Shown one piece after another: positions 5,822 through 6,874 of a stretch of 11,707 bases of DNA; within the stretch, counting starts at the first letter, position 1; each line of letters starts with the position of its first letter. Both the position numbers and the translations under genes were made by a program. Origin of the DNA: Clostridia bacterium (GTDB lineage: Bacteria; Bacillota_A; Clostridia; Peptostreptococcales; JAAYPU01). The notes under the pieces are model-generated. The model had not been told where the DNA came from. It saw only the letters and a list, made by a program, of their open reading frames with translations, and ran no database searches. The DNA lies in assembly GCA_022360735.1 (NCBI GenBank), contig JAKSCF010000633.1, positions 1 to 11,707 on the forward strand. The letters run 5' to 3'.

Positions 5822-6874
5822 TTATACTAATTGTATTAAAGGATTTGCAAACAAAAGCACTAATGCAATAATCAATGCATAAATTCCTGTTGTTTGTGCT
5901 ACTGCTTGCCCTAATATCATGGTTTTAACAATATGTGATTGAAGCTTTGGTCTCATTCCAACAGCTTCTGTACCTTGACCTGCCGCATAACCTTGTCCTA
6001 TTCCAGGTCCAATACCTGCGATCATTGCAAACCCCGCTCCTATTGCAGATGCCGCTAAGACAATTGTTGCACCATTTAAAGTAATTAACGGGTTGGCATA
6101 CATTAATAGTAATGCAATTACTAATGAAAATACACCTGATGTCTGCGCGATTGCAGATCCTAAAAGCATAACCAAAGTAGCGCTTCTTGAACTATCCGGG
6201 TTAATGCTTACAGCTTCTGTAGCTTTTCCAGCCGCATATCCTTGTCCTATTCCAGGACCTATTCCTGCCATCATTGCCAGCCCGGTGGCTATTGAAGATG
6301 CGGCAAGTATAATTTGCTTTCCTTCCAGCAAAGCAAGAGGATTAGCATACATCAATAATAATGCTATAACAAGAGAAAAAATACCCGATGTTTGTGCTAC
6401 TGCAGAACCTAGTAACATAACAAGCATTGAAGTTTTTGATGCTTTAGGATTTTTACTTGTAGCTTCTGCACCTTTTCCTGCTGCATATCCTTGCCCTATT
6501 CCAGGTCCGATACCTGCTATCATAGCAAGTCCTGCTCCTATTGCAGATGAAGCTAATACCAGCTTATCTCCATCAAGATTAATTAAAGGATTACCAAATA
6601 ATAGAATTAAGGCAATAACAAGTGCCAATATTCCCGATGTCTCTGCTATTCCTGCACCCAGAAGCATAACCATTATAGATTGTTTTGCTTCTTTGGGATT
6701 TTCTCCTGCAACTTCTGCTCCCATTCCTGCTGCATATCCTTGGCCAATTCCCGGACCTATCCCTGCTATCATTGCAAGCCCAGCTCCTATTGCAGAAAAC
6801 GCCAATATTAATGATTTTTTATCAAAAGATAGAAGCCATTCAATAAACATTGTAAAAAAATCTTTATATTCCAT
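5822..6874 (-). CDS. Four-hairpin fused c subunit (c1-like) of the Na+ ATP synthase
   Basis: 350 residues, about four times a normal c subunit. After an extra N-terminal stretch (residues 1-20, including the hydrophobic FFTMFIEWLLSF) come four c-like hairpins with an exact 83-residue period: the glycine motif GIGPGIGQG has its Gln at 45, 128, 211 and 294. The ion-site position is E78 in hairpin 1 but Q161, Q244 and Q327 in the others, so eight helices carry one carboxylate. Hairpin 1 has T79, S80 and L83 in place of the T, T and Y of the standalone c. Hairpin 4 keeps T328, T329 and Y332. Hairpins 2 and 3 are about 70% identical; hairpin 4 is closest to the standalone c (about 68%, hand counts). 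ATG with AGGAGGTGG upstream. It lies between atpB and atpE, where A. woodii has its two-hairpin c1 gene. Incorporation into the ring is inferred. Confidence 0.95.
   Translation of the reverse strand: MEYKDFFTMFIEWLLSFDKKSLILAFSAIGAGLAMIAGIGPGIGQGYAAGMGAEVAGENPKEAKQSIMVMLLGAGIAETSGILALVIALILLFGNPLINLDGDKLVLASSAIGAGLAMIAGIGPGIGQGYAAGKGAEATSKNPKASKTSMLVMLLGSAVAQTSGIFSLVIALLLMYANPLALLEGKQIILAASSIATGLAMMAGIGPGIGQGYAAGKATEAVSINPDSSRSATLVMLLGSAIAQTSGVFSLVIALLLMYANPLITLNGATIVLAASAIGAGFAMIAGIGPGIGQGYAAGQGTEAVGMRPKLQSHIVKTMILGQAVAQTTGIYALIIALVLLFANPLIQLV
5825..6814 (-). repeat. Four in-frame tandem repeats of about 249 bp (c-subunit hairpins)
   Basis: Repeat units in transcription order: 6566-6814, 6317-6565, 6068-6316 and 5825-6067 (the last slightly shorter). 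Each encodes one hairpin, and the spacing of the key Gln and Glu/Gln codons is exactly 249 bases throughout. The DNA of the units has diverged, including at synonymous sites, so this is an established gene fusion rather than a fresh slippage product. Confidence 0.93.

Follow-up and report, generated by a model that had tools for sequence, protein, structure and literature searches.

How little energy life can subsist on close to thermodynamic equilibrium is governed by the ion/ATP ratio, and this ratio is determined by how many ion sites the rotor of the ATP synthase carries. Rotor subunits that combine several fused hairpins with a reduced number of ion sites have been described in several enzymes. 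In Acetobacterium woodii, the c1 subunit (PDB 4bem chain J) consists of two hairpins that carry Glu and Gln, respectively, at the ion position (E/Q), and the ring has 10 Na+ sites (PMC7793690). Fused hairpins with fewer sites than hairpins also occur in subunit K of V-type enzymes (Enterococcus hirae NtpK and the eukaryotic c), and more than two hairpins are fused in the three- and 13-hairpin K subunits of the archaea Methanocaldococcus jannaschii and Methanopyrus kandleri (PMC2359735). Here we describe c4x, a gene found in an 11,707-nucleotide stretch of DNA from a Clostridia bacterium (assembly GCA_022360735.1, contig JAKSCF010000633.1; hereafter the window), which encodes an F-type c subunit with four hairpins, a single carboxylate and Na+-type ligands, and which is a new, extended variant of the A. 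woodii-type rotor subunit. The gene belongs to a complete set of F-type atp genes, arranged as a minus-strand operon, in which it stands between the genes for subunit a and for a one-hairpin c. In our best reading, which we consider probable, c4x is a c-ring subunit of the F1Fo encoded by this operon and forms with the one-hairpin c a hybrid ring that takes fewer ions per turn.

The c4x gene occupies 5822..6874 on the minus strand and encodes 350 amino acids, the same frame of the plus strand being interrupted by stops throughout. Its hairpins correspond approximately to residues 17-97, 100-180, 183-263 and 266-346, with ion positions at E78, Q161, Q244 and Q327 that are spaced by exactly 83 residues. 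The Na+ motif has its helix-1 Gln at positions 45/128/211/294, and each of the four ion positions is directly followed by Thr, so that Q45 in helix 1 together with E78 and T79 in helix 2 form the sequence motif of Na+-specific c rings. The PF00137 profile matches four stretches of the protein (172.6 bits against a cut-off of 24), and this match, together with the open reading frame running from 6874 to 5822, bears out the first-pass annotation of a 350-residue, four-hairpin protein with an 83-residue period and an E/Q/Q/Q pattern. The AlphaFold model of c4x is confident and the predicted structure matches A. woodii c1, with a superposition of 1.2 Å over 181 residues, i.e., two hairpins.

A. 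woodii c1 is the closest known protein to c4x. The two share an N-terminal extension, the Glu in hairpin 1, the Gln in the last hairpin, a Tyr that is present only in the last hairpin, and a companion one-hairpin c, which in the window carries the full motif and belongs to the same operon. The kinship to A. woodii c1 that had been proposed earlier is upheld, and a normal c gene adjoins c4x. They differ in that A. woodii c1 has two hairpins and one dead site (an ion position without carboxylate), whereas c4x has four hairpins and three consecutive dead sites. As hybrid rotors of the A. woodii type have a c1 with exactly two hairpins and c4x has four, it is a variant rather than a plain member of this group. 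The c1 of Clostridium aceticum is likewise similar, with Q....ET in hairpin 1, no carboxylate in hairpin 2 and a companion c2, but it too has two hairpins (PMC7911925). Differently from c4x, the V-type K subunits have two hairpins and belong to V/A-type enzymes, while the archaeal ones are A-type and that of M. kandleri retains the Na+ ligands in all 13 hairpins (PMC2359735). Assignment of c4x to the V/A-type subunit K was rejected, since it scores 70.9, 59.9 and 31.7 bits with the three NCBIfam K models listed, below their cut-offs of 211, 101 and 127, respectively. In the ProAD survey, c/K variants with two or more hairpins are said to exist and possibly to lack sites, and 20 F/N-type enzymes with a c lacking Glu/Asp are counted (PMC11738941); a four-hairpin family with E/Q/Q/Q, a pattern of Tyr and a mechanism of the ring are absent from the text of the survey consulted here. 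According to the first-pass annotation, a bacterial F-type c subunit with four hairpins and one site is not known to have been described, and our searches of open-licence literature showed no description of one with at least four hairpins and one site. Multi-hairpin c subunits lacking sites are already mentioned in general terms (PMC11738941). What is new here is the ladder of two- to six-hairpin proteins and the pattern linking a Tyr to the next carboxylate, both described below.

The possibility of an assembly error at the repeat had also been raised. At the DNA level, three 212-nucleotide copies with a spacing of 249 nucleotides are found (72% and 75% identity to the reference copy), or five 128-nucleotide copies when the one-hairpin c is included (66-73% identity to the latter). 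Pairwise, the four hairpins show 57-73% identity in protein and 64-72% in DNA; synonymous divergence between them (dS 0.90-1.55) is near saturation and non-synonymous divergence (dN 0.21-0.36) well below it, which indicates old duplications under purifying selection and not mis-assembled identical repeats. Proteins with at least four hairpins and an E/Q/Q/Q pattern, for which a homology search had been suggested, do exist; three of them, P0004, P0005 and P0006, are full-length, have the same length as c4x and share 83-87% identity with it, on separate contigs. Mis-assembly is possible for tandem repeats, but given the diverged copies, the contrast between dN and dS and these relatives of equal length and identical site pattern, we rejected both an assembly error and a decaying gene, and the probability that we leave to them is next to negligible.

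c4x is not unique, but one rung in a ladder of bacterial c subunits with two to six hairpins. Three protein searches returned 845, 1866 and 1031 matches, of which the best 120 each were listed; all counts of relatives rest on these matches and are not a census. The starting set comprised 282 database proteins and two from the window; 278 of these, c4x included, were retained as multi-hairpin proteins and six were dropped: P0002 (one hairpin), P0065 (one site unread) and P0075, P0095, P0126 and P0189, where hairpin 1 reads Gln and the start is apparently cut, P0189 being without any carboxylate. Among the 278 from the matches listed, nine have two hairpins, 39 three, 104 four, 101 five and 25 six. 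Written as the residues at successive ion positions, the patterns are EQ (9) in two-hairpin proteins; EQQ (23), EEQ (11), ETQ (2) and AAQ (3) in three-hairpin proteins; EQQQ (54), EQEQ (18), GQQQ (16), SQQQ (3), GQEQ (7), SQEQ (1), EQQE (4) and EQEE (1) in four-hairpin proteins; EQQQQ (76), EQQQE (20), EEEEE (2), EQEEQ (2) and EQEGQ (1) in five-hairpin proteins; and EQQQQQ (21), EQQQQE (3) and EQEQEQ (1) in six-hairpin proteins. A single carboxylate is present in 193 proteins, held by hairpin 1 in 185 of these, and at least three consecutive dead hairpins occur in 196/278, carboxylate-free proteins counted in. The names of some matches suggest two types, one from Clostridia with Gln in helix 1, to which c4x belongs together with 14 other E/Q/Q/Q proteins among the matches listed (15 in all), and one from Desulfobacterota with mostly Glu in helix 1. 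The host range rests on the names shown for some matches only. These include metagenome-assembled genomes (MAGs) of Clostridiales, Eubacteriaceae and Peptostreptococcaceae, Alkalibaculum sp. M08DMB (four hairpins), Crassaminicella indica and Alkalibacter rhizosphaerae (three hairpins each), as well as Desulfobacterales and other deltaproteobacterial MAGs, Desulfosarcina ovata and Bipolaricaulota; the three-hairpin P0053 bears the unconfirmed label Lutibacter sp. B2.

Some members of the ladder stand apart. In 22 of the 278 proteins no ion position holds a carboxylate, hairpin 1 having Gly, Ser or Ala and the following ones Gln or Ala; they comprise the four-hairpin P0115, P0239, P0240, P0242, P0243, P0247-P0251, P0254, P0257, P0260, P0270, P0272, P0273, P0277, P0280 and P0282 and the three-hairpin P0099, P0100 and P0104. 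These 22 still keep Tyr in the last hairpin and are possibly rotor subunits without any ion site. At the other extreme, every hairpin of the five-hairpin P0268 (named Bipolaricaulota) and P0274 retains both its carboxylate and its Tyr, so that these two represent fusion without loss of sites. Among viral contigs, none of the eight pattern matches is a relative. In the plasmid collection, three records match P0001, none of them over 80% of P0001, and the six-hairpin P0118 has no match; a gene for an ATP synthase c is present on the 2.6 Mb Acetoanaerobium noterae record L001 (NZ_CP154629.1), which is deposited as a plasmid but is perhaps a mislabelled chromosome.

Gln occupies the ion position in 841 of 877 dead hairpins (203/212 in the clostridial type and 638/665 in the others). 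For all dead hairpins but the last, the ligand in helix 1 is Gln in 68/118 cases in the clostridial type and Glu in 0/511 in the other type, while in the last dead hairpin it is Gln in 94/94 clostridial-type proteins and mostly Asn (122/154) in the others. As the Gln at the ion position is kept while the helix-1 ligand drifts, this Gln seems to be under selection in its own right and may imitate, in neutral form, a site that is loaded. One may also ask whether hairpins 2-4 hold ions even with no carboxylate, by means of Gln and further ligands, in which case the ion count would not be reduced. The helix-1 Gln and the Thr present in all four c4x hairpins, as well as the helix-1 Gln kept in the last dead hairpin throughout the clostridial type, speak for such binding; the drift of the helix-1 ligand in the non-last dead hairpins beside a constant ion-position Gln speaks against it, as does the statement in the C. 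aceticum paper that such a hairpin is unable to bind protons or Na+ (PMC7911925), and we regard it as very improbable.

The Tyr of the Na+ motif provides a sequence-based hint at which hairpins make working sites. Within the chains of the 278 proteins, the hairpin after one with Tyr bears a carboxylate in 51/51 cases, and the hairpin after one without Tyr in 30/877; when Tyr was shuffled among the pre-last hairpins within each protein, the mean was 21.7 and the maximum 33 in 2000 runs. The pattern persists after clustering at 70% identity (70 representatives; a carboxylate next after Tyr in 23/23, after non-Tyr in 11/204) and at 60% identity (32 representatives; 17/17 and 2/91). The two EEEEE proteins contribute eight of the 51 cases, leaving 43/43 without them. 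The usual residues at the Tyr position are mostly L/Y/L/Y in EQEQ, F/F/F/Y/Y in EQQQE and five Tyr in the two EEEEE proteins. A link within the same hairpin was rejected, because a carboxylate is present in only 39 of the 326 hairpins with Tyr, and the link is therefore to the next hairpin. It is known that each ion site is situated between neighboring c subunits, two of which share it (PMC8106487). In the ring of Fusobacterium, Glu65 holds the ion with the help of Ser66 and Val63 from the neighboring subunit and is hydrogen-bonded by Tyr70; the text concerned does not state outright to which subunit the Tyr belongs (PMC3692424). Provided that the hairpins of a chain follow one another around the ring, a Tyr serves a purpose only next to a carboxylate that works, and the pattern thus supports, at the level of sequence, ion sites that straddle successive hairpins. 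The last hairpin retains Tyr in 275/278 proteins, which points indirectly to a role in completing the site of the next subunit and to head-to-tail insertion in the ring. This conservation in the hairpin that would face the next subunit, the position of the c4x gene between a and c, and the fit of its model to a solved ring subunit all disfavor the alternative that c4x is made but remains outside the working ring, either with a role in assembly or replacing c only under some condition; the 22 relatives without carboxylate, which cannot carry ions themselves, would fit such a role, and we judge it unlikely on balance.

In the hybrid ring that we propose, c4x would be inserted together with the one-hairpin c, by analogy with A. 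woodii c1, and its sole carboxylate, in hairpin 1, would bind Na+ with residues that the preceding c subunit contributes from its last hairpin. The other three hairpins would preserve the shape of the ring and offer a neutral Gln at the ion position, so each copy of c4x would take three ions off per turn. For a hypothetical ring of 11 hairpins with one c4x, arithmetic gives eight sites (2.67 ions per ATP) and a threshold of ~194 mV, as compared with 11 sites and ~141 mV without c4x (both at 50 kJ/mol). The earlier figure of eight ions for 11 hairpins and one copy is arithmetically right, its ring size and copy number being assumptions. Such a rotor would act as a high-gear motor, with fewer ions per ATP, a higher gradient required for synthesis and a steeper gradient reached when pumping. 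The suggestion that a low ratio suits a pump or a small gradient consequently holds for ATP-driven pumping but not for the small gradient, as synthesis needs the larger one; a low ion/ATP ratio is of advantage for ATP-driven pumping or, at high gradient, for obtaining more ATP from each ion. A ring made of c4x only, with the one-hairpin c forming a second ring type, could also be imagined as an ATP-driven pump. Three copies would close a 12-hairpin ring with three ions per turn and sites 120 degrees apart, but one ion per ATP would require ~518 mV for synthesis at 50 kJ/mol, only one a/b/F1 set is present in the window and 11 hairpins are given for those Na+ F-type rings that were known in 2013 (PMC3692424), which makes this option quite improbable.

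Several observations weigh against a hybrid ring with fewer ions. A single cE56Q exchange in the ten-hairpin fused ring of Bacillus PS3 abolishes ATP synthesis and pumping (PMC8809890), so one might expect a motor with three neighboring Gln to stall. The dead hairpins of c4x, too, retain the helix-1 Gln and the Thr, and the Foldseek alignment of the c4x model to 4bem_J gives a root-mean-square deviation of 7.6. The converse of the Tyr pattern fails, in that 30 of 81 carboxylates, in 30 proteins and including all 11 EEQ and all eight GQEQ/SQEQ proteins, have no Tyr in the hairpin before. Support for the Tyr link on trees is modest, with pooled values of 12.3 same-way, 0 opposite and 7.7 no difference (2.8, 0.6 and 16.6, respectively, for the same-hairpin control); pairs pooled over positions share rows and are not independent, so that this is not a formal test, and position by position the tree test is too small for significance alone.

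The PS3 result also bears on how torque is produced. In simulations to which PMC8809890 refers, subunit a is faced by two or three c-Glu at the same time, whereas in the hypothetical 11-hairpin ring the consecutive carboxylates flanking the dead hairpins of c4x are 131 degrees apart (arithmetic). If the stator indeed faces two or three carboxylates at once, and given that one Glu-to-Gln exchange kills the PS3 enzyme, rotors with long c subunits would have to cross their site-free sector in another way, which might be elastic storage in the stalk or a free sliding of the neutral Gln hairpins past the stator Arg. We put forward tentatively, with somewhat less than even confidence, that several anaerobic lineages may have built natural gear changes of Fo by copying a dead c hairpin once or several times, that site-free sectors of ~130 degrees (as with four hairpins in a ring of 11) or larger may be crossed by another route and that torque may be generated without a carboxylate at the stator in every step. 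The long c subunits whose sole carboxylate is in hairpin 1 constitute a natural series of rotors with one to five consecutive dead sites, which makes testable both Fo torque without an ion site at the stator and a possible tuning of the ratio by the amount of the second c.

Clues to the origin of the long chains come from a tree of 65 hairpins from 17 proteins, hand-picked from 279 (the 278 plus the one-hairpin c), to which c1 and c2 of A. woodii were added; it has few columns and its inner forks are weak. All 17 last hairpins cluster with the two one-hairpin c and with four even-numbered middle hairpins of the EQEQ type (support 97). Of 29 middle hairpins, 20 form one group (support 98; 19 with Gln and one with Glu, hairpin 3 of P0010) that sides, weakly (78-82), with the first and not the last hairpins. 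In P0003 and P0033, odd hairpins cluster with first and even ones with last hairpins. Two routes appear likely from these sequences. In one, a middle hairpin, perhaps a copy of hairpin 1, would have been acquired and then become dead (EQ, EEQ, EQQ, EQQQ); in the other, the EQ unit would have been duplicated as a whole (EQEQ, EQEQEQ). c4x has probably evolved from a two-hairpin E/Q protein through the gain of middle hairpins, loss of their carboxylate and further copying. The EEQ proteins (P0052, P0054, P0061, P0070, P0071, P0073, P0076, P0077, P0083, P0089 and P0090), whose second carboxylate has no preceding Tyr, are perhaps intermediates after the copying of hairpin 1, or have a weaker site.

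The operon has the order Z-I-a-c4x-c-b-delta-alpha-gamma-beta-epsilon, with all genes on the minus strand. N-ATPase was rejected, since this order differs from the N-ATPase arrangement beta-epsilon-X-X-a-c-(b-delta)-alpha-gamma (PMC11738941). It starts with a small atpZ/ATPase_gene1-like protein (8156..8395; above the Pfam and below the NCBIfam cut-off), followed by AtpI (7725..8135; ATP-synt_I, Pfam) and subunit a (atpB, 6896..7642), where the motif AFRLF with its Arg begins at residue 175. The 88-residue one-hairpin c (5521..5787), whose gene begins 34 nucleotides past c4x, has the full Na+ motif of Gln, Glu-Thr and Tyr, and AGGAGG precedes the start codon in both c genes. Subunits b (atpF, 4963..5514) and delta (atpH, 4433..4975) were assigned by Pfam, and alpha (atpA, 2898..4421), gamma (atpG, 1993..2868), beta (atpD, 577..1977) and epsilon (atpC, 147..557) by NCBIfam. 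At the start sites of the two c genes, no regulatory RNA was seen (no Rfam match at gathering scores) and no RNA hairpin, the folds resembling those of shuffled sequences (z 0.41 and -0.43). Upstream of the operon lie a promoter-like site, TTTACA-16-TATAAT (8427..8454, minus strand), which is a consensus match only in a region with 18 such sites against 15.8 in shuffles, and a terminator-like site (8682-8661), such matches being about as frequent in shuffles. Note also that a short tandem repeat, five copies of the 7-base unit ATTAATT, is found at 11539-11573 of the window.
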